Assembly: GCA_903879705.1 (NCBI GenBank) | Contig: CAIRMO010000061.1 | Span: forward strand, 1-64,000 | Direction of reading: 5' to 3' | Length of the DNA: 64,000 nt | Source of the DNA: an uncultured Candidatus Competibacteraceae bacterium | Lineage (GTDB): Bacteria; Pseudomonadota; Gammaproteobacteria; Competibacterales; Competibacteraceae | Notes under the pieces: generated by a model | Told to the model about the DNA's origin: nothing | The model's input: the letters and a program-made list of their open reading frames with translations, nothing else | The model's database searches: none | Shown: positions 41,764-60,413 of the stretch, piece by piece | Layout of the letters: the number at the start of each line of letters is the position of its first letter | How positions within the stretch are numbered: position 1 is the first letter of the stretch | Made by a program: the position numbers and the translations under genes

Positions 41764-41821
41764 TGCCCTTGCCTTTTGAGAGTGCGCCGCTTGTGCCGCA
41801 AGCTGATTAACATAACAAATT

Positions 41822-41932
41822 TACCGGTTTATGTAGACAGCGGAATGCCGGTCGAGCGGGTGAATCGGGAGCGCTGAAACGATCAAGGGCGGCGTTCCAA
41901 TGAACGCCGCCCCTGCTTAAGCGGATGATTTC
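41822..41932 (+). repeat. Left copy of island-flanking direct repeat
   Basis: A roughly 111-bp sequence: a first identical block of 32 bp starting TACCGGTTTATGTAGACAGC, then a diverged middle, then the hairpin GGGCGGCGTTC (41887-41897), CAAT, GAACGCCGCCC (41902-41912). A second copy in the same orientation lies at 59460-59570. The rest of the 41764-42004 gap shows no gene. No T-run follows the hairpin, so a terminator role is doubtful. Confidence 0.85.
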
Positions 41933-42004: not shown

Positions 42005-43306
42005 TCAACCCGACGGGTAGCCCAGCCGCCGCTGGGCGTCACGCCGGGCTTCATGCTCAAATGCCGATGCGAAGTCATCGAGTTCGTTGGTGGGCAGACC
42101 GACCGCCGCGCTGCGCGCTTCAGTACGCCAATCGGTGACGGCGACGTACACCTCCGCCAGCACCTGGAGTGCGGCGTCTGGGGTCAAGCTGAAATAGGCC
42201 GCGGCCTCCATCAGCATCGCCAGTGAATCAATAGGTCCAGTATCGGGAGACAGCCAGGTCTTGGATTCGCGGTCCTTGTCCGGGAACGGATTCAGATCGA
42301 AAGCCGGGGCCAGCCGCCACTGCCCGTAACCGACCGACAGAAATCCGTGGTTTTGCAGGTGGTCGTCGACATTGGTGATGAGCAGATTGAACACCAGTCG
42401 CCGCCACAGTTGCTGAACATCTGGCGTGGGCGATGCGCAGTAGGTGCGGATGGCGTCGGCGATCTCGAAGTAGGAATGGTCATGCTCCCGGGACGCCTGT
42501 AGCAGCGAAGCCGCCGACCAGTAATGAATCCGGCCCTGATCCGGCGTGCGGTCGAACCGTGTAATGACGGCGACCGGAGTAGGGTCCAGTTCAACGATCC
42601 GTGCCGTGGCGGCCTCGATGCCGGCCCGGGTGGCAAGACGCAGGGCCAGGACTTCACCCCGGGTGACGCTGCGGGAATCGTTGACGCTCGGAAACTTCCC
42701 AATAGCCAATGTCCCGTTCTCATCGAGAACCGTACATTTCGGGCGCATTCCGCCCAAGGAGGTCCCTTTACCTTGCAGGTATTGGAGATCTTCTTCGGTG
42801 TCCTGACCGGTTTCCACCGCCCGGCTGGCATCACAGAGACGCCGTAATTCGATGAGCGGCGGCGCAGCCCGTTCGCCTTTCGCCACCGAGCGCAGATACT
42901 GACCATCGGCATCGCGCAACCGCAGTGCGCCAATCCGGCTGAAGTCATCGACGGCCGTCAGGTAGTCCAGTTCAGTCAAGGCAGCCAGCCTGGGATTATT
43001 CCGGCGCAACTTGGCGTGCGCTCGGGCAATGACGCGCCGCCCCCAGGCATCCGGCTCGGTATCGGCCAGGGCCAGGTGGAACACCGAATCAACCCTGGAT
43101 GGCGCCCGGCGTGGTTGGTGGCCAGCGATCAGGGGCAGGTCCGGCGACACGGCAAAGTGGGCAGGGTCGTCCAGCCAATCGGCGTTGTAGGCGAAAACCG
43201 TGTACTCGCGAGGCCCTTGCTTCACGTAGGTGAGGCGGCCAACTGAAAGGCCCACCTTCCCAATAGCGACCTCGACCTGTTCCTTGATGTGATGTACGGG
43301 CTTCAC
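42005..43306 (-). CDS. hipA: HipA-type serine/threonine kinase toxin
   Basis: 433 residues, normal for HipA. The N-terminal couple-hipA subdomain is followed by the kinase core: GTSLGGMRPKCTV (P-loop-like), the IGKF lysine region, NVDDHLQNHGF (catalytic, about residue 310) and FDLNPFPD (metal-binding Asp). HipA kinases phosphorylate glutamyl-tRNA synthetase or other targets to induce dormancy, neutralised by the HipB partner. It overlaps hipB by 4 nt (ATGA). The GC-rich composition matches the host backbone. Confidence 0.9.
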   Translation of the reverse strand: MKPVHHIKEQVEVAIGKVGLSVGRLTYVKQGPREYTVFAYNADWLDDPAHFAVSPDLPLIAGHQPRRAPSRVDSVFHLALADTEPDAWGRRVIARAHAKLRRNNPRLAALTELDYLTAVDDFSRIGALRLRDADGQYLRSVAKGERAAPPLIELRRLCDASRAVETGQDTEEDLQYLQGKGTSLGGMRPKCTVLDENGTLAIGKFPSVNDSRSVTRGEVLALRLATRAGIEAATARIVELDPTPVAVITRFDRTPDQGRIHYWSAASLLQASREHDHSYFEIADAIRTYCASPTPDVQQLWRRLVFNLLITNVDDHLQNHGFLSVGYGQWRLAPAFDLNPFPDKDRESKTWLSPDTGPIDSLAMLMEAAAYFSLTPDAALQVLAEVYVAVTDWRTEARSAAVGLPTNELDDFASAFEHEARRDAQRRLGYPSG

Positions 43307-43680
43307 AGCGCCCCCGCGTCAGGCGTTGGCTTGCGGGTGCGGATACGTTGCGGGAGTTGGTCATCCATCAGCGCGAGGCCAATGGCATCCTCCGCGGTAT
43401 CCAGAAGGTTCGCGAGTCGTTCAATTTCGCCGAAGACGTGGAGCGCCCGGGCAATGAAGTGAATGGGCACTCGTAGATCGCCGTTCTCCAACCGCTTCAC
43501 GGTTGATACCGACGCGCCAATGCGCTCGGCCAGCGACGCTTGGGAAATGCGTCGGCGCCGTCGGGCCAGGGCTACGTCAGCGCCCAGTTTCTCGATGGCG
43601 CGTCGAACCGGCGGCGGGACAGGCAGCGGGTTTATTCTAAGGTTCTCTTGAGAACTCTTATCAACTTTATTAGCTTCCAT
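43303..43680 (-). CDS. hipB: HipB-type antitoxin repressor
   Basis: 125 residues with a Xre-type helix-turn-helix (about 36-85: ALARRRRRISQASLAERIG, VSTVKRLENGD). It binds HipA and its own promoter. The start ATG 43680 lies inside an 18-bp perfect palindrome, and the only good -10 box (TATTAT) ends 7 nt before it, so the transcript could be leaderless. A later start is not offered by the frame. Confidence 0.88.
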   Translation of the reverse strand: MEANKVDKSSQENLRINPLPVPPPVRRAIEKLGADVALARRRRRISQASLAERIGASVSTVKRLENGDLRVPIHFIARALHVFGEIERLANLLDTAEDAIGLALMDDQLPQRIRTRKPTPDAGAL

Positions 43681-43911: not shown

Positions 43912-44064
43912 ATGTACGTTCAGTTGTGCGATGAAACCAAGAATCTGATAGGTGAAACCTTGGGAAAGATCGAAAACCAAAGTTTCTCTGATAAGCTCAA
44001 GAGACGGATGCTGAAGAGCATGGGAGAGTCGAGTTATAAGATTCCAGGAATTGCTCGCTCCTGA
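43912..44064 (+). CDS. 5' part of the P-loop gene, before a frameshift
   Basis: 50 residues (MYVQLCDETKNLIGETLGK...) ending at TGA 44062-44064. It has a promoter and ribosome-binding site, yet stops just where the next frame (from about 44015) becomes a large P-loop protein without a good start codon of its own. The simplest reading is one gene split by a single extra base. The stop context is TCC-TGA, so programmed +1 slippage is also conceivable. AT-rich, unlike hipBA next to it. Confidence 0.6.
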   Translation: MYVQLCDETKNLIGETLGKIENQSFSDKLKRRMLKSMGESSYKIPGIARS

Positions 44065-46009
44065 GAAGCGTAAGCTGGTGTTTATAGGCCAAGTGGGTTC
44101 TGGAAAAACCACGGCGCTTTGTCATTTGTTAGGGCTTAATTACTGGAAAAAAGAAGGTCAAAAAGAGGGGTATAGAGAATTACTAACGACCGGAGCGGGA
44201 GGAGTAACACTTTGTCGAGTTATTATTAAATTTTCCAAGCACCCCTACATCAAGATAACGCCTGAGGAAGAATCGGTGGTGGAAGGTTGGTTAGAAGAAC
44301 TTGCTGAATATGCAGTAGGACAGGCGAGGAATATTAAAGACAATCCTCCGCCAAATTTACCGGCTGAAATGCGTCGTGCCTTATCCAATATGACGGGATA
44401 TTATCTTCCAGAATATGACAAGAAACCAGCGCTTATGGATAAAGCGGCTGAGATTGTTCAACGTGTTGGTAAAGTTAGCGATGACTTCGAAGAATCCGAT
44501 TCGGCGATAGAAGAACTTTTTCAGTTTATTTTAGGAGCTGCTAATCTATCTGGGCGTAAAACCCATATTTTTAGCTATGAAGGAACAGAGGATTGGGATG
44601 AGCAAGCGGAATGGCTTAATGGCCTTTTCGAGGACATTAATTTAATGTCGCGAAAAGAAATACCGTTTCCAAAGTTGATCGAGGTTGGTGTCCCGAAAAT
44701 TCGTCCAGAGATTTTAGATCATTTTGATGAATTCATTGATACCAAAGGGTTACTCACGCAGGACGGTCAGATTAAAGAGGCAGAAGATTTGCTGGTTCGG
44801 CCTGATACAGTAGCGGCGTTTTGTTCGCCATTTGTTAATGCCCCTGAATCGAGTGTTCGCAAGGCACTGGAGTACTATATTGGTCAAGATCCAGAGCATC
44901 GCAAAGATCAATACCTCTTGATGGTCCTGCCACGTAATGGCGTACCAGAAGAAGTAATCGGTGTGAAGGGTCCGGTTGGAGATTTTGCTGAAGGATGCAA
45001 GATCAAGATCGGTGGACAAATTCAGCCTACTCTTGGAGAGGTTCTTCATATCGCACCTGATGACACTTATGAAAATGGAATTCAGCCAAACGTATTTATG
45101 TACAGTGCCAAAAAGTACTTGAATAATAAGGTTCCAATTCGCAATAGACAACCTTTGTGGAAAGATAATGGTGATAGGGAGGAAGGAGAGGAAAAAGAGA
45201 CTAATGATTCTTACTCCAATTTTGTGTTTGATAAGATCATTGCCAGCATTGAAACCCGGAAAAAACGACTAGGAACTGAAGTAGAGAAAATCAAAGAAAA
45301 ACTAAAAGACATTCGTGGATTGCTTTTGCTAAGCGCCGAAGAAGAAAGGGCTATTGAGCGGCTGGAGGATGATATTCAAGAAATACCCTCCTTGAAACCG
45401 GCATATGATCTCTGGTTTGAAAATAATGAAATATTAACGCCCCCTTACCTTACGTTGGATCGACAGGGCGGTTTTTCGGAAATCTTGGGTAACATCGGTC
45501 TGAGTTTGATCTATGAAGATGATGCTCACAAATCGCGGTTCCATGCTTTAACTGTACGGGCGTTTTGTAAGCATCAGGGAGTTCATAGTGGCGTTGCGGG
45601 TCCTTATGATTTTTATGCTCGGTCGGAGAAATTTACCCAAGAACTGGTTGATGAACCATTCAAAAAGCGAGTAGGTGAATTGAAGAATTGCTTAGTTAGG
45701 GTTTGCGAGGATTTTAAGACTCCATTGTTGAAAGAAATTCTTAGCGAGCAATTCCAAGTATTAGACGATGCTAAAAAGCTGTACTTAGAGGTATTGAAAG
45801 CTAGGGTCCGCGAAGAAGTTGAAAACCGGGTCGGGGAAGATGAGTGGAATGAAGCCTTCGATTTCCGAGGCACTGCTCTAACTGTGAAACGTATAGATTT
45901 TATTATGAGGCAGTTGGCTAATAATTTCTTCGAGAGGCAAGTAGCTACTGTTTTCCAAGAAAAAATTACCCAACCACTAATTGAGTTTTTTAGCCGAAAT
46001 GGGAATTAA
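44051..46009 (+). CDS. Dynamin-like or GTPase-like P-loop protein, frameshifted start
   Basis: 652 residues after the shift; with the upstream 43-46 residues the intended product is about 700. Walker A/G1 is GQVGSGKTT, a few residues from the join. A TTGAGGVTLC loop follows, and EFIDTKGLL resembles a G3 DxxG motif with APESSVRKAL downstream, as in dynamin-like GTPases. The middle part around ETRKKRLGTEVEKIKEK predicts a coiled coil. The C-terminal quarter is helical. I do not recognise a named family. A small nuclease gene follows at 76 nt, suggesting a two-gene conflict/defence unit. Marked AT-rich composition points to horizontal transfer. Start TTG 44051 is only formal. Confidence 0.6.
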   Translation: MLAPEKRKLVFIGQVGSGKTTALCHLLGLNYWKKEGQKEGYRELLTTGAGGVTLCRVIIKFSKHPYIKITPEEESVVEGWLEELAEYAVGQARNIKDNPPPNLPAEMRRALSNMTGYYLPEYDKKPALMDKAAEIVQRVGKVSDDFEESDSAIEELFQFILGAANLSGRKTHIFSYEGTEDWDEQAEWLNGLFEDINLMSRKEIPFPKLIEVGVPKIRPEILDHFDEFIDTKGLLTQDGQIKEAEDLLVRPDTVAAFCSPFVNAPESSVRKALEYYIGQDPEHRKDQYLLMVLPRNGVPEEVIGVKGPVGDFAEGCKIKIGGQIQPTLGEVLHIAPDDTYENGIQPNVFMYSAKKYLNNKVPIRNRQPLWKDNGDREEGEEKETNDSYSNFVFDKIIASIETRKKRLGTEVEKIKEKLKDIRGLLLLSAEEERAIERLEDDIQEIPSLKPAYDLWFENNEILTPPYLTLDRQGGFSEILGNIGLSLIYEDDAHKSRFHALTVRAFCKHQGVHSGVAGPYDFYARSEKFTQELVDEPFKKRVGELKNCLVRVCEDFKTPLLKEILSEQFQVLDDAKKLYLEVLKARVREEVENRVGEDEWNEAFDFRGTALTVKRIDFIMRQLANNFFERQVATVFQEKITQPLIEFFSRNGN

Positions 46010-46085
46010 TTAATGAAAGCCTACCTACTAACATTAGCTAAGCTATTTGGTGGGTAGGTTACATGATTTATGCAGGAGAGCAGTT

Positions 46086-46532
46086 ATGCGTTTTTTGGAA
46101 GAAATCTATCAACGATTTTCGACATCGCCTATTGGACCAGAGGAGAAAGTACGTCAGACTTTGTTTGAATTCTTAAAAGCTCATCTTAACCCTCGATTTC
46201 TAGAGATACTTCTCGAAAATAGACATCGGGATATAGTTATTAGAAGGCGACAAGATAATACAGATATTTTCATTATAGAACTTAAAAGAGAAGGATTTTT
46301 CATTTATAGAAATGCTGACGTATACAATCAGTTAAGATGTTATCTCAGGAGAAAATATCCACCTTACCATGGCGCATTGTTTAATTTAGATGATTTAATT
46401 TTGTTATCTCATCCTAGTAGAGAGCAGTATCCTTTGGGAAGGAGATTAGACAATATAGAGAAATTGATTGTAGCGATTCATGACGCAGCCAATGAAGAAA
46501 CCGTACCGATTAACAATGCTCGACGCAGATAA
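46086..46532 (+). CDS. Small PD-(D/E)XK-type putative nuclease
   Basis: 148 residues from ATG 46086, AGGAG 7 nt upstream. EEKVRQ (helix Glu19/Glu20), RDIVI (Asp) and DIFIIELKREG (Glu-x-Lys) are in the order and spacing of the PD-(D/E)XK nuclease core, and a following NQLRCYLRRKYPPYHG helix fits. It is probably a DNase acting with the P-loop protein. Family membership is by motif only. It ends overlapping, tail to tail, the methyltransferase on the other strand (23 nt). Confidence 0.55.
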   Translation: MRFLEEIYQRFSTSPIGPEEKVRQTLFEFLKAHLNPRFLEILLENRHRDIVIRRRQDNTDIFIIELKREGFFIYRNADVYNQLRCYLRRKYPPYHGALFNLDDLILLSHPSREQYPLGRRLDNIEKLIVAIHDAANEETVPINNARRR

Positions 46533-47181
46533 AAAATTTCTGCATTGACGACCGAACTACCTGACCTAACTGATAACCACTTGCAGCTAAATTTTGCTCC
46601 AACCACGAACGCGAAGCGTATCTCCACGGGAATGGTCCATCGCTCAGATTACGGTAGCGAATCGTGAAGTGAGAAACAAAAAAGTTGTTGCCAAACGGAT
46701 TGCCAGACTCCACTACCAACACCCCGCCTGGATTCAGTAACTGGTGAATCCGGCGCAACCCGGTCAGCGTCGACTGCTCATCGCCGAAGATCCCCAAACC
46801 ATTCCCCATCAGCAATACCAGATCAAAGCGTAAATCGTCGGGGACATCGGCAAAGGACTCCCGGAACATCGCCGACGGAAATCGCGCTGCGCAGTACTGG
46901 CGCAAATCGTTCGCTTTTTCAACGCCTACCAGTTGCGCCGCTGGCTGTTGCCGCCGAACAAAATCCAGATGTCGTCCCACGCCGCAGCCCACATCCAGCA
47001 CCGTTGGTGCAGGCCGATCCCGCAACAACCCAGTCAGTAGCGTTTCCTCCTCCGGGCGAAGTTGCAGGAAATCCTGGCATGAACAATCCAGTCCTGGCCC
47101 ATTCATCATCTCCAACCGAAACTGAATATCTCGGGTTGGGTGTTGCAACTGTCCCAGCATCGCCGTGGCAAAAGCATCCAT
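46510..47181 (-). CDS. SAM-dependent methyltransferase, intact copy
   Basis: 223 residues. A class I Rossmann methyltransferase: motif I VLDVGCGVGRHLDFV, acidic motif VGVEKAND, motif IV FDLVLLMGNGLGIFGDE. LNPGGVLVVESGNPFG is the motif V region. The substrate is unknown; the CDFLQL...SCQDF start suggests a small-molecule or protein target. A second, frameshifted copy lies at 58800-59460 in the same orientation. Ends overlapping the nuclease gene. Confidence 0.8.
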   Translation of the reverse strand: MDAFATAMLGQLQHPTRDIQFRLEMMNGPGLDCSCQDFLQLRPEEETLLTGLLRDRPAPTVLDVGCGVGRHLDFVRRQQPAAQLVGVEKANDLRQYCAARFPSAMFRESFADVPDDLRFDLVLLMGNGLGIFGDEQSTLTGLRRIHQLLNPGGVLVVESGNPFGNNFFVSHFTIRYRNLSDGPFPWRYASRSWLEQNLAASGYQLGQVVRSSMQKFFICVEHC

Positions 47182-47233: not shown

Positions 47234-47731
47234 TTACATACCGGTACATGGCGCAATGGATTCCCCTATCGTTGCCGCCAATTTTTTGATCAAGCCAGGA
47301 TGATAAAAAATACCTTGTGATTGCATAGCCAGTACATTTTCAGTAAAGGAATCAATCCAGCCCGCCTGTTTGGCCTTGAGTAATACTCCTAAAGTGCCAA
47401 CCACTTTTAGACCAAGATATTCAGCGACATTCCTGCCGATTTTTTCGTCAATAACCACCCAGTCAGCTTGATATTTAATGGCCATATCCAAAGTGTGTTT
47501 TTCACCTTTATCCAGCGCCAGTAATAGCGTCGGATGAATTAACGATGAAGCATCGACAGTTTCTATCCAAGGTAGCTTGGCCAAGTCTGGAACACGAATA
47601 CGATGACCTGCGCGACATTCATCGACGACTTGTTGAACAACATGAATTCTCTCAAAAAGACGAGGCAACAAGCTCAGTTGGTCGATGCTGGCCAATGCAA
47701 TAAACGGCGTAGTATTTGAAAAAATGATCAT
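47234..47731 (-). CDS. DUF3368/PIN-like toxin
   Basis: 165 residues. Starts MIIFSNTTPFIAL, the conserved N-terminus of DUF3368 PIN-like RNases (Asn replaces the first Asp of the usual D-TP; acidic residues VVDECR and DWVVIDEK follow). Overlaps the UPF0175 gene by 4 nt, the standard antitoxin-toxin order. The first active-site Asp is thus Asn, a common family variation, so activity is not certain. Confidence 0.8.
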   Translation of the reverse strand: MIIFSNTTPFIALASIDQLSLLPRLFERIHVVQQVVDECRAGHRIRVPDLAKLPWIETVDASSLIHPTLLLALDKGEKHTLDMAIKYQADWVVIDEKIGRNVAEYLGLKVVGTLGVLLKAKQAGWIDSFTENVLAMQSQGIFYHPGLIKKLAATIGESIAPCTGM

Positions 47732-48085: not shown

Positions 48086-49975
48086 TCAAACCGCCTCTGC
48101 CATTCCGCCTACCAGAACCCGTTCCAGCAAGGCTCCCAGTTGGGCGGCCAATTCAGGAACCGGCACATTAGCGACGGCATCCGGATAGTACTCGGTGACA
48201 TGTTCGGTATCCGGCCCCAACCCGATCCCGATCAGATTTAAACCGGGTTCCTCGCATAAGGTTGCAATGGCGCGACGCAAGTCGCTTTCATCGGAGCGCC
48301 GACCTTCCGGCAGACCATCGCTGATCACGATGAGTATATGGTCGCTGGCCGCTTGCATCAGCAACTGTTCCGCCGCCGCCAACAGACAGGGGCCATCGTC
48401 ATTATGCTGACTGCGATTATGCCCGCCGGGCCGGCTATTGCTGACTTCCTGGGGCATGGTTTCCAGCGTCTGCCGCCGTTCTGCATCCAGTGGATCGTGA
48501 AAGTCCAGCAACGGGATCAACTCGTCCTGAAAGCCGGCCACCGCCAGCGGTACGCCCAGCCGATGCAGGGTCTCGACCATCAGCACCGTCCCCAGCAATG
48601 CCGCCTCGCTCTTGGGACCCTGCATTGAACCGGACAAGTCCACCAGCAGGAACACCGCCGCATCATGCCGATCCGGGATGCTCTTGCGTCGCCACAGTTG
48701 ATGATAACGGCGGGCGTCCGCCGCAAAATCCATCACCCGCCGCAGGTCAATGCGATAGCCGCTGGGATAACCGGCGCGGTCGTGAAGCCGGCGGCGCGGC
48801 TGGAGGATGTACTCGATCTGTCCTGTCAAAGCGTCGATTTGTGCAGCAATGCGGAGTCGCGCCCGTTCATAATCATTAGCAACCGGCGGCAATTGAACGC
48901 GAGTGCGTGGACCGGGCGGGGGTTTATCCACCAACGCGCATTCTCGGATTGGCGGCGGCGGACCCGGACGTTGGCGTTGCCCGGTGGCTTCCGCCAGCAT
49001 CAGATAGAGCAGATCCGCCGCCAGCCGCTGTCCAGCTAGACCGGTTTCGCTCGCTGGCGCTACCGGAGGAGCCGCCAGCACCGTCAACACTAACCGGGTT
49101 GCGGCAGCGGAGTCGGGTTGGTCGCGAATCGCGCCAGCTTGCCGCCAAGCAGCGCGATCCGCCCGCAGGCCCGCCGCCAAGCGCTGGACATCGCCCTCCA
49201 ATAACCGCAACGCGGTCGGGACGATCTGGCGATGTGCCAGTTCACCAGCTTGCCAGGCGTGATGCTGAACGCCTTGTTCCCAACGACTGGGCCAGGTGCG
49301 GATGCGGATCGGAGCCAGTAGCCGAGGCCAAATCTGCTGGGGGTAGGTCTCAAACAAGGCGGGGTCAAGGTCGTTCGCATCCAGAGAAGTGGGCGGCAGC
49401 GTATCCTCGGCATAGCGGCGGCGATCCGTTCGGGTCGCGGCCAGCGCAGCGGCAATGGCTGGCGGCACAGCGAATGCCGGCGCTGCTGCTTGCCAATCCA
49501 GCGCCCATTCCCGGGCGCATTCCAGCGCAAATCGCAGAAAATCCGGCAACCCGGCGGGCTGCGGCTCCGGTTGCAGGGCCGTGGCGCGATCCACTTCACC
49601 GAACCAGTCGCGGCAACCGGGATAGCGTTGCGCCATCCAGCATTCAACGCGGGGATCTTCGATGGCGTTGAGCAGTTGGAGCAAAGCCCGTTCGGTCAAC
49701 CCGGAATGTTGAGCCACTGGCAAATGTTCCGGCGGGGTAAACAGGGAGTAGCGGCTGATCAGGGCGTGGCCGGCCTCATGGGCGAGGATGCCAGCGCAAT
49801 AGCCGGTGCCTTGCTCCGCTAAATCTCTGGTAGCGACCTGGATCACCCGGCGCACTGGATCGTAGGCCCATTGTTCGGTCAAGGTCGCTTCAACCTGGAT
49901 TTGCGCGTCGTAACAGAGGCCGGCAGCCAGCGCGTTGAGTTGCCGGACCTGATTGGAAATGGTGGTCGTCGTCAT
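48086..49975 (-). CDS. vWA protein with N-terminal zincin motif
   Basis: 629 residues. HEAGH at 66-70 with Glu106 (NAIEDPRVE) is a gluzincin-like pair in the first domain; the middle is Arg/Pro-rich. The C-terminal von Willebrand A domain has the MIDAS DLSGS at 446-450, followed by a later DGP and SDG. vWA proteins with MoxR/AAA partners act in insertion or remodelling of protein complexes. The AAA gene is 90 nt upstream on the same strand. GC-rich composition. Whether the zincin site is active is unproven. Confidence 0.8.
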   Translation of the reverse strand: MTTTTISNQVRQLNALAAGLCYDAQIQVEATLTEQWAYDPVRRVIQVATRDLAEQGTGYCAGILAHEAGHALISRYSLFTPPEHLPVAQHSGLTERALLQLLNAIEDPRVECWMAQRYPGCRDWFGEVDRATALQPEPQPAGLPDFLRFALECAREWALDWQAAAPAFAVPPAIAAALAATRTDRRRYAEDTLPPTSLDANDLDPALFETYPQQIWPRLLAPIRIRTWPSRWEQGVQHHAWQAGELAHRQIVPTALRLLEGDVQRLAAGLRADRAAWRQAGAIRDQPDSAAATRLVLTVLAAPPVAPASETGLAGQRLAADLLYLMLAEATGQRQRPGPPPPIRECALVDKPPPGPRTRVQLPPVANDYERARLRIAAQIDALTGQIEYILQPRRRLHDRAGYPSGYRIDLRRVMDFAADARRYHQLWRRKSIPDRHDAAVFLLVDLSGSMQGPKSEAALLGTVLMVETLHRLGVPLAVAGFQDELIPLLDFHDPLDAERRQTLETMPQEVSNSRPGGHNRSQHNDDGPCLLAAAEQLLMQAASDHILIVISDGLPEGRRSDESDLRRAIATLCEEPGLNLIGIGLGPDTEHVTEYYPDAVANVPVPELAAQLGALLERVLVGGMAEAV

Positions 49976-50008
49976 GGATTGCTCCTCAGTGCGGAAAAGC
50001 TCGAACCA

Positions 50009-50052
50009 CCCCGGCGCTCACTCGCCACTCCTCCTTTTCCAGGGAGGGGAGT
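50009..50052. repeat. Diverged copy of the CCGGCGCT repeat
   Basis: CCACCCCGGCGCTCACTCGC followed by CTCCTTTTCCAGGGAGGGGA resembles 35-76 and part of the dsbD insertion. It fills the gap between the AAA and vWA genes. Confidence 0.55.
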
Positions 50053-50065
50053 TTGCGGGGAATTT

Positions 50066-53000
50066 TCAGAGGGCGGGAGCGAAGCCAGCGGCGGCCAGCA
50101 GTTGCAACACGGTCTGCTGATCTTCGCCGGCGGTGACGCGGCTCAGGTAGTAGCGATGAATCGCGGTACGCAGGGCCTGATCCGGGTCGGTCTGGCCGAC
50201 CGCCGGGGCGCGGGCGAGGTAATCCAGGACGCTGAGCAGGTCGCGCCGGGTGAACACATAGCGTTCCCGCCGCCGGGCGCCAAGCCGAGCTGGCCCGTCG
50301 CCCTGACCGGTGGCGTGTTCCAAGGCAACGTGAAACCGGGTCAGGGCGCTCAGACGCGGTGCAAATTCGGGGGTATTCAAGGCCGGGTGCGAGGGCTGGC
50401 CTTGCTCGGCGCGGTAGCGCTGACCGAGTACGACGGTTTCCGGTTGCGCCCCGGAAGCTAGAAACCGGGCCATAGCCAGATACTCGCGCTCGCCCGGTTT
50501 GGGCGCTTGCCGGAAGGCTTGCCAGCGGTTGCGATAGGCCGGGCTGAGGGTCGAGCGGCCCGCATATTCCGCCGGATTCATGGTGGCGAACACCCGAAAG
50601 TCGGCATGAATCGGTTCGCCGCCATTGCCGTAAACCCGGTAGTCGTGTTCGGTCAGCACCAGGGTCGGCTCCCGCTCCAGCACCGAGTTCAACCGTTCCA
50701 CGATCTGCGGTTCGGCCAGATTGAGTTCGTCGAGGATGATCCACCAGCCTTGACGCAGCGCCTCGACGACGGGGCCATCCTGCCAGCGCCAAGGGTGGCT
50801 ACGCATCCGCTCGTTCGCCATGACCTGCTGCACCTCAGCGCGACCCAGCGCCCGCTGTTCCTGGGCGGCGCGGTTGAGAATCAGCCGGGTTTCCGGCTCC
50901 AGCAATTCCTCGACTTCGCGCAGTTCTTCCGGCGACACCGGTAGATCGGTTTCCAGCGCCCGCGGCACATAGCGCCCGACCAGTTCGCCGGTATCGGTCT
51001 GGCCGTTCAGGTTGATGCGGATCACCGGCTGATTGAGCAGGGCGGCCAGATACAGAATGGCGCTGGTTTTGGAGGTGCTGGTTTCGCCTTCGAGCAGGCA
51101 CGGCTCGCCGAGGGCGACGCTGGCGGCGATATGCGCCAGGGTTTCGGCGGTAATTGGATCAAGGCAATAGTGGACAAACGCCGCCGGGGAAGGGGCCAGC
51201 GCGTGGTGCGGGCCAGACCGGCGCGGCAGGGTGATTTCGCCAATGCGGACGGCGCTGGCAGTGATGTTGACCAAGGGGCGGGGGGCGGGGCCGACCGGTT
51301 CCCGGAACCAGGCGATGGGTTGCGGTGTGGCGACGTTTCGGCGACGGCTGGGCGGGCGGTCAGGTGAGTCCGGCAGATAAACCCAGATGTCGTGGTCGTT
51401 GGGTGGCCAACACCTGGTGAGTTCGGGTTCAAACCCGGTGTGTTCCTGGACCTTGGCGCGGATTCGTTCGATCAGCTCGGCGGGCGCGCCACCGTACTGG
51501 ATGTTGGGTTCACCGATATGCCGTTCCCGTTGGCTTTCACAGCGGGTCAATCCCCAAGTGCGAAACTCTTCCAACAGGGTTTCCACCCGATCCGGGTGGC
51601 GTGTATGGATCTGCAACCGATACGGCAGGGCGGTGGGTCGGCTACCGTCGGCGATTCCGGTGACCGGGCAATCGATTCTGATTTTGACGGCGGCGCGATC
51701 TTCATCGCCCTCTTCTTCGCTCAAGGTATAACGCGGCAGAGCGCCGAGATCAGTCATGGCACGGTGCAGGGCTGGGCGAATTTGCGCGGCGACTTCCGGT
51801 TGTGACTGGGCGGCGTTCCAGACCACGCGGAAACCAACCAAAGCGGTGTCGTCGTCATCATCCAAATCGGCAATGATTTGATCGATTTCGGCCTCCATCT
51901 CATCATCGTCGGCGGCGGTTGTTCCGGGGTCGATGGCCTCATCTTCGGGGAGATCCGGCGCTCCTAGCGCCCAATCGATCTCGTCTTTCTCCTCCTCAGC
52001 GGCGATCAATTCCGCCACGGTAGGCAACCGATGCGCTTCACTCGCGGCGGTGGAGCGGATTTCCACCGACTTGAACCCCATCGCTCGCAATGAGGCGGCC
52101 AGTTCCTGAACGGCGGGATGCTGGTCCTGATCGGTACGAATGGCGATCTCGAAGCGTTCCCGATCGGGGCCGTCATAGGGCGGGCGACGACGCTCGGCGC
52201 AGGCGGTGAGGGGCAGGACCAGTTGCGCCTGGCGGCAGGCGGATTCACCGTCGTCATCCACATCGAGCGGATAGCGGATGGGATCGACGCCGCGCCGGGC
52301 GATGATCTGTTGCGCCCGCACCTGCAACCGGGTTGCTGCCGGAGTATTGGCCAGCGGGCCGGGTTTAACCCGCAGTTTGGCTTGAATGGCGGCTCGCGGC
52401 GGCAAGGCTTCAATGGCGATGTCGCTGAACCCGTCCTCGCGCAATTGCTGCGAGAGTTCATGGGCAGCGGCGAGATCGTCGCTACGAATCAGCACCCGGA
52501 AGCGCTGCGCCAGCGGGGTAGCCGAGGGGTCTTTGGCGCGGATGAAGATGTCCTGGTCGCTGTCTTCCCATTCCTTGTTTTCGGTCAAGCTCAGGCCGTG
52601 TGGCTGGAGCAGCCATTGAATGATGTGGCGGGCTAATGGGGAAGCGCCGCCGTATTGCATCTGATTATTCTCCTGGGGGCCGTAGTGTTCCTCCAGCGAG
52701 TCGATATTGAAATCCAGCGCGGACAAGCCGTTACGCAGAGTGTCGGTCAGAGTGGGCGAGTCGCTGTGGATATGCAGATTCCAGTGGCCGAACGGGCGGC
52801 TGTCGCCCAGATGCAACTCGGCATCGACCCCGCCGGGAAGCTCGGCATCGGGGATGATCGGCGGCTGAAAGGGCTGAATCCGGTTCAGCAGGTCTTGCAT
52901 ATCGCCGGGGAGAACGCCCGATCTCAGCCGCAGCTCGTAGGTTTCGGTAGGACGGTTCAGCCGTTGCACCTGATAACCGCCCGGTTGCCGCAGGCGGTCA

Positions 53001-53092
53001 GCGAGCGACCGGGCGATGGTCGAGTGGGCGGAAATAACCCGGATGAACTGGGTTGGGGCGGATGATGACAGGGTGGGAGTACGCTTGGCCAT
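50066..53092 (-). CDS. AAA+ ATPase with long repeated N-terminal region
   Basis: 1008 residues. The C-terminal MoxR/dynein-like AAA+ module has Walker A GETSTSKTS (about 668-676), Walker B ILDELNL (about 780), sensor-type FATMNPAEYAGR and an arginine-rich AYRNRW. Residues 1-620 contain repeated small alpha/beta units: the IQYGGA-type block (144-190 and about 525-575) and RFRVLIRSDD / RFEIAIRTDQ units, with an acidic linker (DDDEMEAEIDQ). It is likely to remodel a protein or complex with the vWA partner. No family name is recognised for the N-terminal part. It diverges from the TetR-type regulator. Confidence 0.78.
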   Translation of the reverse strand: MAKRTPTLSSSAPTQFIRVISAHSTIARSLADRLRQPGGYQVQRLNRPTETYELRLRSGVLPGDMQDLLNRIQPFQPPIIPDAELPGGVDAELHLGDSRPFGHWNLHIHSDSPTLTDTLRNGLSALDFNIDSLEEHYGPQENNQMQYGGASPLARHIIQWLLQPHGLSLTENKEWEDSDQDIFIRAKDPSATPLAQRFRVLIRSDDLAAAHELSQQLREDGFSDIAIEALPPRAAIQAKLRVKPGPLANTPAATRLQVRAQQIIARRGVDPIRYPLDVDDDGESACRQAQLVLPLTACAERRRPPYDGPDRERFEIAIRTDQDQHPAVQELAASLRAMGFKSVEIRSTAASEAHRLPTVAELIAAEEEKDEIDWALGAPDLPEDEAIDPGTTAADDDEMEAEIDQIIADLDDDDDTALVGFRVVWNAAQSQPEVAAQIRPALHRAMTDLGALPRYTLSEEEGDEDRAAVKIRIDCPVTGIADGSRPTALPYRLQIHTRHPDRVETLLEEFRTWGLTRCESQRERHIGEPNIQYGGAPAELIERIRAKVQEHTGFEPELTRCWPPNDHDIWVYLPDSPDRPPSRRRNVATPQPIAWFREPVGPAPRPLVNITASAVRIGEITLPRRSGPHHALAPSPAAFVHYCLDPITAETLAHIAASVALGEPCLLEGETSTSKTSAILYLAALLNQPVIRINLNGQTDTGELVGRYVPRALETDLPVSPEELREVEELLEPETRLILNRAAQEQRALGRAEVQQVMANERMRSHPWRWQDGPVVEALRQGWWIILDELNLAEPQIVERLNSVLEREPTLVLTEHDYRVYGNGGEPIHADFRVFATMNPAEYAGRSTLSPAYRNRWQAFRQAPKPGEREYLAMARFLASGAQPETVVLGQRYRAEQGQPSHPALNTPEFAPRLSALTRFHVALEHATGQGDGPARLGARRRERYVFTRRDLLSVLDYLARAPAVGQTDPDQALRTAIHRYYLSRVTAGEDQQTVLQLLAAAGFAPAL

Positions 53093-53281: not shown

Positions 53282-54034
53282 ATGATCAAAAAAGATATTG
53301 AAAATAAAGAAAAAATCAGCGTTAGAGATCGGATCATCAATACGGCTATCAGCCTCTTCTATGAAGAGGGTTTCAATGAAACGTCCTTGCGTGCTATCGC
53401 TAGAAAGGCGGGAACCAGCGAAACCGGTATTTTGCGGGTGTTTGAATCAAAACTTGACATCCTGCTGGCTGTTTTCAATAAAGGCTATGAATTGATTATG
53501 CATGAAATACAAATCAATTTATTAAAAAAAGGGCTTTCTATAGAGCAAGAAGAGGTTATTCCTGTACTTATGATCATTGCTGAAACTATCCTGAATCTGG
53601 GGGAATCTGAAGATGATAGATCAAAAAATCTGCTCCTGTTGACAATCGGAGAAGCCGGTATTTCTGTTCAAAAGTACAAAGATAATCCAGAAATAGCACA
53701 CAACTTTAAAGATAAAGTTATTAATTACATAGACCGACTTTTCGAGCATAGCTGTAATAGTAATATACAACCACTTGAAGCAAGGTGTTTTTTTTATGGG
53801 TTTATTGAACATGCTATTTTTGGTCGCGTTGCCAATTTGGGAAATTACAATAAAAATAATGTATTAATGATATTAAGTTGTCTGCTTGAATGCATCATTA
53901 AAAAACCAGAAACCGTTAATTATGATGACTTGGAAAGTCACGGTATATCTATTAGAGACTTGGCTGATTCGGCGAAAGCCATGATAGAATCAACCAAGCG
54001 CTTGATCAATGTTATTGAGGCAATAAAAAAATAG
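53282..54034 (+). CDS. TetR-type transcriptional regulator
   Basis: 250 residues from ATG 53282. The N-terminal HTH (about 12-60: RDRIINTAISLFYEEGF, LRAIARKAGTSETGI, LRVFESK) is TetR-like. The C-terminal ligand domain is helical and divergent. GGGCGGAA before the ATG is a weak ribosome-binding site. It begins an AT-rich plus-strand block and lies 89 nt before the helicase gene. Probably autoregulatory through the adjacent palindromes. Confidence 0.8.
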   Translation: MIKKDIENKEKISVRDRIINTAISLFYEEGFNETSLRAIARKAGTSETGILRVFESKLDILLAVFNKGYELIMHEIQINLLKKGLSIEQEEVIPVLMIIAETILNLGESEDDRSKNLLLLTIGEAGISVQKYKDNPEIAHNFKDKVINYIDRLFEHSCNSNIQPLEARCFFYGFIEHAIFGRVANLGNYNKNNVLMILSCLLECIIKKPETVNYDDLESHGISIRDLADSAKAMIESTKRLINVIEAIKK

Positions 54035-54123
54035 TTCGGAGAGTGGAAATCAAACAGACAAAGGTTGCTTGCAGATTGGCGGCTATCCTGATGATGTGCA
54101 AACGGAGAATGCGGTAGATTCCT

Positions 54124-57100
54124 ATGGAAATACAGATTAAATCCCCTGATGCCTGTACACCAGCACAACTAAAGGGGTTCGCTGATAGGGTGCATGTCGG
54201 TGGTGAGGTGATGGAGCATGGGCTTGAGGCGCGGATTCGTCATGCCAAATTATTGGCTTTAGGCTACGAGGAATCGGAACTGGTCGGGATCGCTGCGCTG
54301 AAAAACTCGCATCCTCATTATCGCCAAGATGTATTCAAACGCGCTGTATCGCAACTTGACCCTGAACGATTCATTTTTGAATTGGGCTGGATTTATATTA
54401 ACCCACAACTCAGGAGACATGGACTGTCCAAATCGATGATTGAGGCATTACTCGCTGCTGTAGAGACTACGGATATTTTTGCGACAGTGCGAGTAGATAA
54501 TATCCCTATCACTCGGATCTTATCGCAGCTTGAATTTTGTAGAGAGGGTTATATTTATTCCTCACAACTCGGGCAGTATGATCTTGCACTTTTCGTTTTC
54601 TCCCCTAACCTTGAGGTTTCTCAAATGGTCAGCAAACAGGCTCTTGTTAGCGTTCTTGAAGTTCTCCGTGTCATTGAACTCAAAGCTGCACTTTCCAGTG
54701 CTGGTCTTGCTAGTTCGGGATATAAAGATGATTTGGTTGATAGGCTTGCAGTTGCAATCAGGAATGAGAACGCATCTTTTGAAGAAAATATACTGGATGT
54801 CATTGATGACATTTTTTATGAGGCAATAGCTAATGCTATTACTGAATTGAATGAAACACAACAGGACAAATTTGTTCAAATTATTCCTCAATGGTTTTCT
54901 GATAATTACCTTGGTGGAAATACCGAAGAGAAAGAAGAGGAAGAAGAGGAAGAGGAAGAGGAAGAGGAATATGCGCCCCAAGATACTAATGATGATTGTC
55001 TTGGTGAAATGGACAGCTATCGTAGCGTAAATTACAGGAATCAGTTCTTTAACGATTTGAGGTATGATCAACACCATTTTCATGAGACTCGTCCATATCA
55101 AAAAGACGCAATAGATGCTTTGGAAAAAGCACTTGATAATTATGAATGTCCTGTTGTTCTTCATGTAGCAACTGGTGGCGGTAAGACTCGTATTGCTAAT
55201 GACTTTATTGTTAAGAAAATTCACCAAAGCCAGCAACCTATTCTTTGGGTTGCTAAAGATTGGCGCTTACTTCATCAAGCAGCGCTCGATCTGATTAGAC
55301 GCCATGCTCACCTGAGATATGAAGCAATAACCCGTTTGGGTGGTGACGGAGCGCTTCTACATCCTTTAAGAGAAATAAATGAAGGCTTAGGAATTGTTAT
55401 TTACTCTACCTTACAAACTGCAGGTCGCAGAGGTCGTTTAAGTGTCTTTACAAGAGGAAATCGCCCAAAGTTAGTCGTATATGATGAATTTCACTGGGGT
55501 CTTGAAGGGCAAACGGGCCAGCGCCTACGTAACTGGTGCAAACGCCACAAAATTCCAATTATTGGCCTAACGGCTACACCACGTTCTCCAGATGATACGA
55601 ACACCTATATTGCATACAGTAAGACTTTTTCTGCATTAATAGTTGAAGAATTTTTAGCTAAACCTAAACTAGAAAATATTGGAACTAACATTGATTGGTT
55701 TCCAAAAATGATTGGTGATGACGTTTCTTCTGCATCTCTCCGTGAACTGGCTGATAGTCAAGAGCGGAATAATTTGATTGTCAATCATTACATTAAAAAT
55801 GCACGACGCTACGGGAAGACACTCGTGTTCGCTTGTAATATTGATCACGCCAATAAACTTGGAAATTTATTTAATGGATGTGGGGTTGCTGTACGGGTTA
55901 TACATAGCCAGATGACTCGTGGTGAGCAACAGGAAGCCATCCAAGCCTTTCTCAATAATCAAGTCCAAGTCTTGATCAACGTAGCCCAAATGACACACGG
56001 AGTAGATATTCCAGATATTAGGACAATTTTTATGTGTCGTCCTACTGCGAGCGATATATTATTTTCACAAATGATTGGTCGTGGCTGCCGACGCTATAAA
56101 TTACCGGATAGTACATTCAAAACATTTTTTTACTTGGTTGAGTTTACTGATAATTTACAGCGCCATGACATTAAGCTAATTACGTCAAAAGCTTACTTTG
56201 ATGGCTGCCTTGGAAGTAACGAAAATTCTTCTCGTGTAGTTGTAAAACATCCTCACGATGGAGAAATTGCTTTTGATTCGACTGGTGTTATAACTTGGAT
56301 TGCGAGTGGAGTACCTGAATTGATTCGAGGTCTTTGCTATCGCCATAACCAGTCTTTTGGTATTGAGTTCGAATTTACTCATAAAGACTTTGATCCAGAT
56401 GATGAAACTATGCCTAATGATTGGTGGTTTCAAATCGCCGAGCAACTTCGGCAATCGCTTCACAACAAATTGCCTTCTGGAACTGTGGCAAGCCAACTCG
56501 AAGGTGGTGATAAGCGATTTTGGAATGTCAAATTTGACCGTAGTTGTGGGTGGGAAGTGACCAGTCGTGTTTTGCGAAATCAAGATGGTTTTAATGAAGT
56601 AGTTATTGTTTGTGAAGTACTAACAGAGTGCATTAAAAAAACGGGCCTTAAGGTTAATTACCGGACTGGGACACATATTCATTTAGGCTGGTTAGGACGT
56701 ACTGTAGATGAAGTTCGGCGAGCAATAGAATTAGCTCGCTTGTTTGAGCCAGCACTGGGAACACTGGTCAGTCCTTCGCGATTAATGGAATATCCTGATC
56801 AGTCTGGTGGTTATAATCCTGCTAACCCTAATTGCTACTGTCAACCCGTCTCCAGATTTTATTCAAACCAAAATTTGGAGCAGGTGCAAAATCGGGATCA
56901 GCTTTTGTCTCTTTGTAGTGTTGATGATTCCCGCTATGTGACCTTCAATATTTGCCCACTAGAGGATATTCATACTGTTGAAGTACGGATGCACAATGGC
57001 ACTCACGAAGCGGATAAAATTCTGTTGTGGTTGAGTCTGTGGATGCAAATTTTATGGGCAGCCTCTCACAGCGAAAAAATTCCTCCGGTACCGGATTGTG

Positions 57101-57288
57101 AGGTCATCGTACCAAATGGTGATGTTCTCGATCTTGCGCGTCAATATCTTGCAGTTGACACAGACACTGCTGATGAATTTCTTGCAAAGCTACGCAGACG
57201 TAGAATGCAGGTTGTCGAACTTTGGCGGGATAAATCAGAGTTGCATTCTTGGCTTGAATACCAAAACTCTTGGCGGACGGACTTGTAA
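54124..57288 (+). CDS. GNAT-SAP-helicase-amidoligase fusion protein
   Basis: 1054 residues, AT-rich. In order: a GNAT acetyltransferase domain (about 1-160; RRHGLSKS as the acetyl-CoA motif at 97-104); a SAP DNA-binding motif (about 175-215; VIELKAALSSAGL); a 12-Glu stretch (271-282); a superfamily II helicase with Walker A ATGGGKTRIA (349-358), DEFHW (454-458) in place of DEAD, GLTATPRS (481-488) and HSQMTRGE/QMIGRGCRR (about 595-660); and a C-terminal amidoligase-2-type domain from about 742 (GIEFEFTH, GWEVTSRV, GTHIHLGW, VEVRMHNGT). Each module is a known family, but I know of no described protein combining them. It suggests DNA-directed chemistry coupled to amide-bond formation. It begins the block with two peptidase genes. 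Confidence 0.85.
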   Translation: MEIQIKSPDACTPAQLKGFADRVHVGGEVMEHGLEARIRHAKLLALGYEESELVGIAALKNSHPHYRQDVFKRAVSQLDPERFIFELGWIYINPQLRRHGLSKSMIEALLAAVETTDIFATVRVDNIPITRILSQLEFCREGYIYSSQLGQYDLALFVFSPNLEVSQMVSKQALVSVLEVLRVIELKAALSSAGLASSGYKDDLVDRLAVAIRNENASFEENILDVIDDIFYEAIANAITELNETQQDKFVQIIPQWFSDNYLGGNTEEKEEEEEEEEEEEEYAPQDTNDDCLGEMDSYRSVNYRNQFFNDLRYDQHHFHETRPYQKDAIDALEKALDNYECPVVLHVATGGGKTRIANDFIVKKIHQSQQPILWVAKDWRLLHQAALDLIRRHAHLRYEAITRLGGDGALLHPLREINEGLGIVIYSTLQTAGRRGRLSVFTRGNRPKLVVYDEFHWGLEGQTGQRLRNWCKRHKIPIIGLTATPRSPDDTNTYIAYSKTFSALIVEEFLAKPKLENIGTNIDWFPKMIGDDVSSASLRELADSQERNNLIVNHYIKNARRYGKTLVFACNIDHANKLGNLFNGCGVAVRVIHSQMTRGEQQEAIQAFLNNQVQVLINVAQMTHGVDIPDIRTIFMCRPTASDILFSQMIGRGCRRYKLPDSTFKTFFYLVEFTDNLQRHDIKLITSKAYFDGCLGSNENSSRVVVKHPHDGEIAFDSTGVITWIASGVPELIRGLCYRHNQSFGIEFEFTHKDFDPDDETMPNDWWFQIAEQLRQSLHNKLPSGTVASQLEGGDKRFWNVKFDRSCGWEVTSRVLRNQDGFNEVVIVCEVLTECIKKTGLKVNYRTGTHIHLGWLGRTVDEVRRAIELARLFEPALGTLVSPSRLMEYPDQSGGYNPANPNCYCQPVSRFYSNQNLEQVQNRDQLLSLCSVDDSRYVTFNICPLEDIHTVEVRMHNGTHEADKILLWLSLWMQILWAASHSEKIPPVPDCEVIVPNGDVLDLARQYLAVDTDTADEFLAKLRRRRMQVVELWRDKSELHSWLEYQNSWRTDL

Positions 57289-57447
57289 TTCTATGCAGCC
57301 AGTCGATAATGATTGACAATAGAACTGACTGGTTGCCGGTTCCCGCTGAGCTTCGTCATGTAGCGAATGGAAACCATCTTTTGTCAATTACCACTGGAAT
57401 CATATCGATCACTACTTTTTTAGGACTACCCGCAAGAAGAGGATAAT

Positions 57448-58131
57448 ATGCAAACCATGACGATTCTGAAACAACAAGGTCACATCCTGGTATTGATCGG
57501 TAATAACAGAGCCATCATTGACACCGGTTCGCCGTCCAGCATGTCGCCTGCGCTGTTTAATTTTCTCAATCAGCGCCAGTGTCCACCAACAAATATCATG
57601 GGCATAACACCCCAAAAGATGAGTGAGCTAGCGGGCATCCGAATAGACCTACTCATCGGCTGCGATATCTTGTCGCAACACACTATCCGTTTCCGATGGC
57701 GCGATGGTCTGCTAGACGCCGGCGATGATATTCCCGATGGCCCCATATCAGCGGAACTCGAAACACTGATGGGAATCCCTGTCTTCCCGGTGACGCTCCG
57801 AGGCCAACTAACAAAGGCGCTTTTTGACACGGGGGCGCACCTTTCATACATAGACCCAGAACTTGTCGAGAGAGAATCACCTACTGGGCAACGGAATGAC
57901 TTCTATCCGTTTGTAGGCCAGTTCACCGCCCCAACCTATCGTATTACGACAGCACTGGACCATGAGTCCCTCGAAATCGAATATGGAACTCTCCCGCATA
58001 GTCTCCAAATGATGCTGGGCATGGCAATGGACGTGTCGGACTCTTCTGCCGTAATTGGGACTCAACTCCTGGAAACCTTCGATTGCACCATATCTTGGAC
58101 GCGAAACAGGATTTCATGGCAAAGGAAATGA
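57448..58131 (+). CDS. Single-chain retropepsin-like aspartyl protease
   Basis: 227 residues, AAGAGGA just before the ATG. Two halves each have the retropepsin layout: DTGS (25-28) with LIGCDIL (69-75), and DTGA (127-130) with VIGTQLL (about 207-213). So both catalytic aspartates of the usual homodimer lie in one chain, as in pepsin. No signal peptide or membrane segment; cytoplasmic. It follows the helicase-amidoligase gene by 159 nt, on the same strand. Confidence 0.72.
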   Translation: MQTMTILKQQGHILVLIGNNRAIIDTGSPSSMSPALFNFLNQRQCPPTNIMGITPQKMSELAGIRIDLLIGCDILSQHTIRFRWRDGLLDAGDDIPDGPISAELETLMGIPVFPVTLRGQLTKALFDTGAHLSYIDPELVERESPTGQRNDFYPFVGQFTAPTYRITTALDHESLEIEYGTLPHSLQMMLGMAMDVSDSSAVIGTQLLETFDCTISWTRNRISWQRK

Positions 58132-58144
58132 AACTGCAAACCAT

Positions 58145-58173
58145 CGCCTTCACCGGACAGTCCAGTGAAGGCG
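58145..58173 (+). terminator. Strong hairpin between the two peptidase genes
   Basis: CGCCTTCAC (58145-58153) and GTGAAGGCG (58165-58173) are perfect complements, with a nested GGAC/GTCC. Followed by TAAAATT rather than a clear T-run. It may reduce read-through or set the ratio between the two genes. Confidence 0.4.
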
Positions 58174-58208
58174 TAAAATTCGACTTTACACAGAGGTTCT
58201 TGTGAAAT

Positions 58209-58712
58209 ATGCCTTACAACCACACATCTACATTGTGGCCCACTGACGGCGATTGCTTTTATCGTAGCCGAGACGTAAATCCTCTCCGGCAGAGTGGTCC
58301 GCATTGTGTTTCAACGGTACTTGCGATGCTCACGGCCCAGACTGCCGAGATGTTTCAAGGAAGAATAAATACGCAGGATCCAGTCTCCTGGTCATTCGCG
58401 TTATCAGAGTTTGGAATGAAACTCGCGTATTGTCCGACCGATGTTCGTAAGTTGCAATTTTACCTTTCCGAACTGATTCGATTGGACGATCTGTTCACAT
58501 TAAGCTATTACTCGCCCGTTGATGGCTCAATTCTCAATGACCCGGATAAAAAGGGCTGGGTTTGCGGCTCCCATATCGTGATTCTTCACCGTTCGCAAAT
58601 ACTGGATCCCGCGAGTGGTCGGACTGTCAACGCGAAGGATCATCATTGCAGCAATCACTTCACAAAACGCGTATTTCGTGTCGTCCCATCAGATTGTCAG
58701 AGAGGACTATAA
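58209..58712 (+). CDS. Papain/C39-like cysteine peptidase
   Basis: 167 residues. QSGPHCVSTVLAML carries the putative nucleophile Cys33, and GSHIVILHRSQILDPASG carries His122 and Asp133, the order and spacing of C39-type peptidases. No signal sequence. AGAGG precedes the ATG at about 10 nt. Same strand as the aspartyl protease, 77 nt after it. Substrate unknown. Could alternatively be a non-proteolytic transglutaminase-fold enzyme. Confidence 0.6.
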   Translation: MPYNHTSTLWPTDGDCFYRSRDVNPLRQSGPHCVSTVLAMLTAQTAEMFQGRINTQDPVSWSFALSEFGMKLAYCPTDVRKLQFYLSELIRLDDLFTLSYYSPVDGSILNDPDKKGWVCGSHIVILHRSQILDPASGRTVNAKDHHCSNHFTKRVFRVVPSDCQRGL

Positions 58713-58799: not shown

Positions 58800-59460
58800 T
58801 CAATCGCATTTGCAAGCACAGGCAATAAAAAATCCACCCGGCATTGTTGATTTAATAACCCGATCAAGGCGATAGCCCAGTTCAGTCAAATTCCGCTCCA
58901 ACCACGCACGCGAAGTGTATCCCCCACGGGAATGGTCCATCGATCTGATTACGGTAGCAAATCGTGAAGTGAGGGGTAGAAAAGCCGTCTCCAAACGGAT
59001 TGCCTGACTCTACTATCAACACCCCGCCTGGATTCAATAACTGGTGAATCCGGCGCAACCCGGCCAGCGTCGCCTGCTCATCGCCGAAGATTCCCAATCC
59101 GTTCCCCATCAGTAACACCAAATTAAAGCGCGAATCGTCGGGGACATCGGCAAAGGATTCCCAAAACATCACCGACTGAAATCGTGCCGCGCAAGACTGG
59201 CGCAAATCGTTCGCCTTTTCAACGCCCGCCAGCACCGCCGCCTGCTGTTGTTGCCGGATAAAGTCCAGATGCCGTCCTATCCCACATCCCACATCCAGCA
59301 CGGCGGGTGCCGGACCATCCGATAGCAGCGCCGTCAGCAAGGCTTGTTCTTCCAGGCGAAGGTGCAGGAAATCTCGACACGCGCAATCGACTCCTCCCCC
59401 GTTCTCCATCTGCATCCGAAAGCGGATGTCTTGAGCCGGGTTTTGCAACTGATCCAGCTT
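58800..59460 (-). pseudogene. Frameshifted second methyltransferase copy
   Basis: Closely related to the intact gene at 46510-47181: VLDVGCGIGRHLDFI, VEKANDLRQ, LLMGNGLGIFGDEQ, LLNPGGVLIVESGNPFG. Near 58922 it has CCCCC where the intact copy has CTCC, one base more, so the frame shifts and the remaining RAWLERNLTELGYRL tail lies in another frame. Its first codons are replaced by the right island repeat, which begins at 59460. Confidence 0.88.
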
Positions 59461-59570
59461 ACCGGTTTATGTAGACAGCGGAATGCCGGTCAGGCAGGCG
59501 AACCGGGGGCACTAAAACGGCAAAGGGCGGCGTTCCAATGAACGCCGCCCCTGTTGAAGCGGATGGTTTG
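59460..59570 (+). repeat. Right copy of island-flanking direct repeat
   Basis: Same orientation as 41822-41932: the first 32 bp are identical and so is the GGGCGGCGTTC-CAAT-GAACGCCGCCC hairpin (59525-59550); the middle differs at several positions. Directly follows the broken methyltransferase. Confidence 0.88.
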
Positions 59571-60336: not shown

Positions 60337-60413
60337 GTTGTGGAATTTATCGTAGCACGGGCATCCTGCCCGTAAGCGGAACACGGGCAGGATGCCCGTG
60401 CTACATCCACAAC
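60337..60413. repeat. MITE-like hairpin with the GTTGTGGA termini
   Basis: Starts GTTGTGGAATT (60337-60347) and ends TCCACAAC (60406-60413). The interior is a long, nearly perfect hairpin built on GTAGCACGGGCATCC and its complement. Shares termini with the element at 11-180. Confidence 0.65.

Follow-up and report, generated by a model that had tools for sequence, protein, structure and literature searches.

A GNAT-SAP-SF2 helicase-Amidoligase_2 fusion protein in Candidatus Competibacteraceae, a candidate for DNA-coupled amide ligation

The locus and the fusion gene

The window analysed here is a stretch of 64,000 nucleotides from an uncultured Candidatus Competibacteraceae bacterium (contig CAIRMO010000061.1 of assembly GCA_903879705.1). 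Four genes follow one another on its forward strand (Table 1): a TetR-type regulator, a large protein fusing GNAT, SAP, SF2 helicase and Amidoligase_2 domains, a retropepsin-like aspartic protease and a small protein with papain/C39-like motifs. All four frames are open at the coordinates listed, that of the regulator also upstream to 53144, and the successive gaps measure 89, 159 and 76 bp. The frame of the fusion is far beyond chance, since the segment, when its mononucleotides were shuffled 200 times, gave no stop-to-stop frame above 190 codons. Promoter and terminator matches along the locus were at chance level, and we therefore make no statement about an operon.

Table 1. Features of the locus and of its surroundings (positions in the window)
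Feature	Position	Strand	Details and evidence
HipAB	42005-43680		
DUF3368 protein	47234-47731	-	PADLOC candidate defence family PDC-S70, 3e-41
TetR-type regulator	53282-54034	+	250 aa, 35% GC; PF00440 (TetR_N) 3.2e-12; precedes the fusion
GNAT-SAP-SF2 helicase-Amidoligase_2 fusion protein	54124-57288	+	1054 aa; Pfam profiles, motifs, second copy in G010
GNAT domain, fusion residues 1-165	54124-54618	+	motif RRHGLS; Acetyltransf_1
SAP motif, fusion residues 181-209	54664-54750	+	PF02037, 26.1 bits vs cut-off 23.9
Acidic Glu-run linker, fusion residues 268-282	54925-54969	+	not conserved in the G010 copy
SF2 helicase/translocase core, fusion residues 321-656	55084-56091	+	RadD/HsdR-like; motifs I, II, III and VI intact
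Amidoligase_2 domain, fusion residues 742-975	56347-57048	+	PF12224, 5.4e-11; superfamily motifs
Single-chain two-DTG retropepsin-like aspartic protease	57448-58131	+	227 aa; RVP 1.3e-5
Small protein with papain/C39-like motifs	58209-58712	+	167 aa; motifs alone

The initial annotation had proposed that one protein joins the four domain types, and profiles and motifs bore this out. Matches to ResIII (2.7e-14), Helicase_C (6.2e-14) and Amidoligase_2, as well as to DEAD and SAP, are above the Pfam curated cut-offs. For the GNAT region, Acetyltransf_1 scored 19.4 bits, slightly below the cut-off of 20.7, and it passed this cut-off in a second copy of the protein from another genome (23.1 bits); a two-sequence GNAT profile matched GNAT chains of the PDB with E values of 6e-4 to 1e-3. 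In those parts available to us of the literature that names both amidoligase and helicase, no paper describing a fusion of the two was found.

The helicase and amidoligase parts

The helicase region has the four SF2 motifs intact (GGGKT at residue 351, DEFH at 454, TATP at 483 and GRGCR at 652) as well as both RecA-like domains, which identifies it as an SF2 helicase/translocase, and it matched the DNA helicase phrog_16 at 1.2e-49. Its best matches in the PDB were 7clg, a putative helicase of 953 aa, RadD (6jde) and HsdR (3h1t), and restriction enzymes of types I and IV are among the best helicase-level matches in PADLOC. The fusion has this core in common with the RadD, HsdR and type IV restriction motors, but differs from them in several respects: no nuclease domain was found in it by Pfam profile search, neither HsdM nor HsdS adjoins it, GNAT and amidoligase domains are present instead, and its scores stay far under the NCBIfam equivalog cut-offs (72 bits vs 720 for RadD, and 77.7 bits vs 550 for HsdR of the EcoAI type). 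No known anti-phage defence family spanning the whole fusion was found, the 25 PADLOC matches listed all lying within the helicase region.

At the C-terminus, PF12224 scored 43.3 bits against a cut-off of 22, over positions 2-243 of the 245 of the profile (45.3 bits for the second copy). The motifs G-x-E-x-E, HIHL, SR and T-x-E-x-R-x-H-x-G-T are present, and correspond to those of the stand-alone Amidoligase_2 enzymes of bacteria and phages (GxExE, HxHL, SR and TxExRxHxGT), with which the fusion shares a full-length match to the profile; in an alignment of seven amidoligase sequences, including phage and stand-alone bacterial members, the residues G, E, E, H, R, T, R and W are invariant. Both profile and motifs place the C-terminus of the fusion in Amidoligase_2, and an amide-ligase activity is predicted from its sequence. 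An AF2 model of this region together with one viral relative had a pLDDT of 43.9, too poor for fold comparison, and a Foldseek search with it gave no match at E<=0.001. The Amidoligase_2 family reportedly goes back to Iyer et al. in 2009, and we know of no established link between its enzymes and DNA. Identity of the fusion to the stand-alone enzymes is 18-26%. The proteobacterial members that we found lie in frames of 288-476 aa, whereas here the amidoligase is the end of a helicase protein of 1054 aa. The surroundings differ too: a class I glutamine amidotransferase or GGCT lies near the other Amidoligase_2 genes at the loci read (a class I glutamine amidotransferase-like gene adjoins the bacterial PF12224 locus L014, and GGCT or glutamine amidotransferase genes are near those of the three phage loci), while the fusion has neither as a neighbour.

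A second copy and the distribution of the fusion

Two of the 40 genomes of the order carry the fusion, the second (G010) coming from another genus in the family. The copies are 66% identical over helicase and amidoligase and 53% over the GNAT domain; with 73% identity, the amidoligase is better conserved than any other part. In G010, GNAT, helicase and amidoligase follow in the same order, and the SAP motif and the acidic linker are missing (a gap in alignment A2). Because the domain order is identical in two genera, misassembly and a one-off event are largely ruled out. The architecture is thus confirmed as real and present in more than one genome. Between the copies, dN/dS (Nei-Gojobori) is 0.30 for the GNAT domain, 0.12 for the helicase, 0.13 for the amidoligase and 0.16 overall, with a span of 0.06-0.30 across domains, figures that are rough because dS is high. 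Every domain is under purifying selection, the helicase being as constrained as the amidoligase.

The second copy sits on a contig of 8.8 kb (L009), with an AAA_25/winged-helix (RepA-like) gene upstream, and ParA, HD, PIN7, DUF4160/DUF2442 and Uma2 genes downstream. This contig is plasmid-like, so that the setting is mobile in one of the two cases, in agreement with the mobile surroundings suggested by the initial annotation; no overlap was found when its ends were compared. An in-frame TGA at L009:2869-2871 comes just after helicase motif VI, and the amidoligase frame is intact downstream of it. This stop may be a recent decay, a natural split or a sequencing error; since it falls between helicase and amidoligase, either the physical fusion may be non-essential or the G010 copy may be decaying.

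No further fusion was found when 369 genomes of the class and 337 genomes of another class were searched with the amidoligase end, nor in a PF12224 search of 398 genomes of the phylum, where the other matches lay in the frames of 288-476 aa. These genome sets overlap and are samples, and therefore support that the fusion is rare, not that it is absent elsewhere. Among 72,556 plasmid and 50,697 phage records none covered the fusion to 80%, and the listed matches were with its helicase part; the amidoligase end matched no plasmid and 13 phages, the latter at 23-26% identity. Scans of viral contigs with the fusion, A1, A2 and the C-terminal part gave no full-length relative, only helicase-level matches and one at amidoligase level. 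Because just two copies are known, statements on linkage rest on n=1.

Neighbouring genes and genomic setting

The annotation of a TetR-type regulator before the fusion held, and so did that of the first of two peptidases proposed after it: the retropepsin reaches 25.8 bits with RVP (cut-off 20.7), has DTGS at residue 25 and DTGA at residue 127, and matches tethered HIV-protease. The C39/papain-like label of the second found no profile support, as no Pfam family matched at E<=10; it was given by eye from RQSGPHCVST (C33) and GSHIVIL...DP, and the AF2 model of this protein alone had a pLDDT of 33.7. The retropepsin, whose single chain holds two DTG lobes in the manner of a tethered retroviral protease dimer, belongs to a family seen in just two of the sampled genomes of the class.

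The linkage of these genes to the fusion did not withstand comparison. The regulator had no match at E<=1e-15 in any other of 59 relatives, G010 included, and neither it nor the two peptidase-like genes were found anywhere in the G010 genome or in the other relatives searched. The small protein had no relative in any of the relative genomes searched nor in the viral-contig scan, in which a full-length relative of the retropepsin was not found either. The only retropepsin relative found (31-33% identity) is in G083, at L055:5696-6451, where no amidoligase was seen and the neighbours are, by eye, transporter- and topoisomerase-like. GC content is 0.35 for the regulator, 0.42 for the fusion, 0.51 for the retropepsin and 0.48 for the small gene; the flanking genes have 0.64 and 0.56. 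The codon usage of the regulator (0.67) and of the AT-rich gene at 44051 (0.83) correlates with that of the fusion, and that of the retropepsin (0.19) and of the small gene (0.35) does not, short genes being noisy. Because of the absence from G010, the stand-alone retropepsin relative, and GC content and codon usage (n=1 on each side), a co-inherited three-enzyme system is unlikely, and the retropepsin and the small protein are each probably unlinked neighbours. Their absence from G010, their composition and the stand-alone retropepsin relative led us to reject the regulator and both peptidases as parts of a system with the fusion. That homologues might lack the peptidases had been named beforehand as speaking against such a system, and the sole homologue found (n=1) does lack them.

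The AT-rich composition pointed out initially is evident in the contrast between the fusion (42% GC) and the flanking genes (56-64%). The copy of the window lies in an island of 40% GC within a contig of 60% GC, upstream of leuC. Congeners share DNA with the window from leuC onward only, so the side upstream of leuC is variable and, for the same reason, no empty site was found; convincing terminal repeats were not found in a repeat search for the ends of the island. The HipAB genes, the PDC-S70/DUF3368 gene and the diverged duplicate methyltransferases around the fusion fit a patchwork of acquired genes.

Further features of this region were observed. An AT-rich pair at 44051-46532 encodes a P-loop protein of 652 aa (GQVGSGKTT), whose codon usage is near that of the fusion, and a protein of 161 aa with a weak HSDR_N_2 match; the two genes may form a mobile or defence unit that has not been described before. 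At 48086-53092 on the reverse strand lie a VWA (CobT_C-like) and an AAA_5 (GvpN/CobS-like) gene of host-like GC, well under the cobaltochelatase cut-offs. Two methyltransferase genes on the reverse strand (46510-47181 and 58882-59448), in direct orientation, flank the segment of 47.2-58.9 kb and share 76% protein identity and 81% DNA identity over 571 bp; the latter of the two seems to carry a frameshift, with its C-terminus resuming in a different frame at 58800-58994. A 111-bp repeat occurs at 41821-41931, upstream of a glgB-like gene, and at 59459-59569, directly adjoining the second methyltransferase gene, with 87% identity. A perfect inverted repeat of 22 bp with a loop of 9 bases lies at 60352-60404, upstream of leuC.

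Alternative explanations

The initial annotation saw a system that responds to foreign DNA: on sensing it, the fusion attaches a tag through an amide bond, the retropepsin and the cysteine peptidase remove or process this tag, and TetR controls the whole. The common strand and the short gaps argue for it, as does the proximity of phage amidoligases to enzymes that process peptides, among them GGCT and glutamine amidotransferase. Retropepsins encoded near peptide-type ligases, as at this locus, also exist in the RimB-RimK and RloA-RloC pairs (PMC12239564). Such partnerships made the idea reasonable, but they concern ATP-grasp ligases, RimK and RloC not being GS-like, and the retropepsin of the window differs by having two DTG lobes per chain, and it is not kept together with the fusion. 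It is on linkage that the proposal fails: the sole homologue genome lacks all three neighbours, the retropepsin relative stands alone, and GC content and codon usage set the two peptidase-like genes apart, so that we regard it as very unlikely. Even more improbable is an assembly artefact or a decaying chimera, which would agree with the rarity (two genomes among all searched) and the internal TGA of the second copy, but hardly with an identical junction and domain order in two independent genomes, an open frame of 1054 aa and a dN/dS of 0.16.

The protein might modify nucleic acids instead: the helicase would open DNA or RNA, the GNAT domain would acylate a base amine and the amidoligase would build an amide on this amine, as an anti-restriction function of a plasmid. 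TmcA, a tRNA acetyltransferase, offers a precedent with helicase and GNAT in a single chain, and Mom-type GNATs decorate DNA; the plasmid-like setting and a motor related to restriction translocases are consistent with such a role. However, the helicase and GNAT families of TmcA are others, in another order, and TmcA has no amidoligase; the fusion gave no TmcA-type helicase or GNAT family match, no further gene for base modification was recognised in the vicinity, and the amidoligase relatives at the loci read adjoin GGCT and amidotransferases, not base-modifying enzymes, which leaves this explanation unlikely. Still less do we expect the substrates of the amidoligase to be small molecules or peptides of the cell surface, a role that has been proposed for the amidoligases of phages, with a helicase fusion that would be incidental or just regulatory. 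The contexts in which the family is known from phages and proteobacteria, and the in-frame stop between helicase and amidoligase in G010, point that way, but the helicase motifs are intact, the helicase is constrained as much as the amidoligase, and no GGCT or amidotransferase gene was recognised beside either copy. A role in superinfection exclusion, suggested for the phiEco32 amidoligase (PMC11318856), would also favour such substrates.

Proposed function and significance

We consider the functional unit to be the single fusion protein, an accessory cargo of mobile DNA that would unite a DNA motor with amide-ligase chemistry, and give this overall reading a probability of roughly 0.45. Its parts are not equally firm: we are highly confident of the unit and its architecture, DNA-coupled amide ligation by the predicted enzyme is an even bet, and a protein, rather than a nucleic acid, as its target is a tentative proposal. 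A restriction-type motor in which amide chemistry replaces the nuclease is the simplest reading because RadD, HsdR, 7clg and restriction enzymes are the nearest relatives of the core. Such a dsDNA motor of the RadD/HsdR type, a family assignment supported by its motifs, would load on DNA or move along it with ATP; the SAP motif may aid this in the copy of the window and would be dispensable, since it is absent from G010. The motor would bring the C-terminal GS/GCS-like Amidoligase_2 domain to a substrate met on DNA, where the domain would use ATP to link an amino and a carboxyl group through an amide bond; the most likely substrate would be a protein bound to DNA, and the N-terminal GNAT domain may acylate the same or a related amine. 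In our judgement a protein target is slightly favoured over nucleic acid because the known contexts of the amidoligase family are those of peptide chemistry. The plasmid-like and toxin-rich contexts suggest a conflict of the host with mobile elements or phages as the likely setting, and the TetR-type regulator and the two peptidases would be chance neighbours in a variable island.

In eukaryotes, helicase-ligase fusions are mainly known as ubiquitin ligases. It is conceivable, though we rate the chance as low, that the fusion is the first DNA-translocating amide ligase, in which a peptide-ligase domain and a GNAT domain replace the nuclease of a restriction-type dsDNA motor and would mark DNA-bound proteins, or DNA, on translocation, a functional parallel to the Rad5/HLTF helicase-ubiquitin-ligase fusions. 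The peptidase partners, attractive as they are, should be dropped before model building. As a conserved combination of motor and ligase in the mobile DNA of bacteria, the fusion would offer a directly testable case of amide chemistry coupled to DNA translocation.
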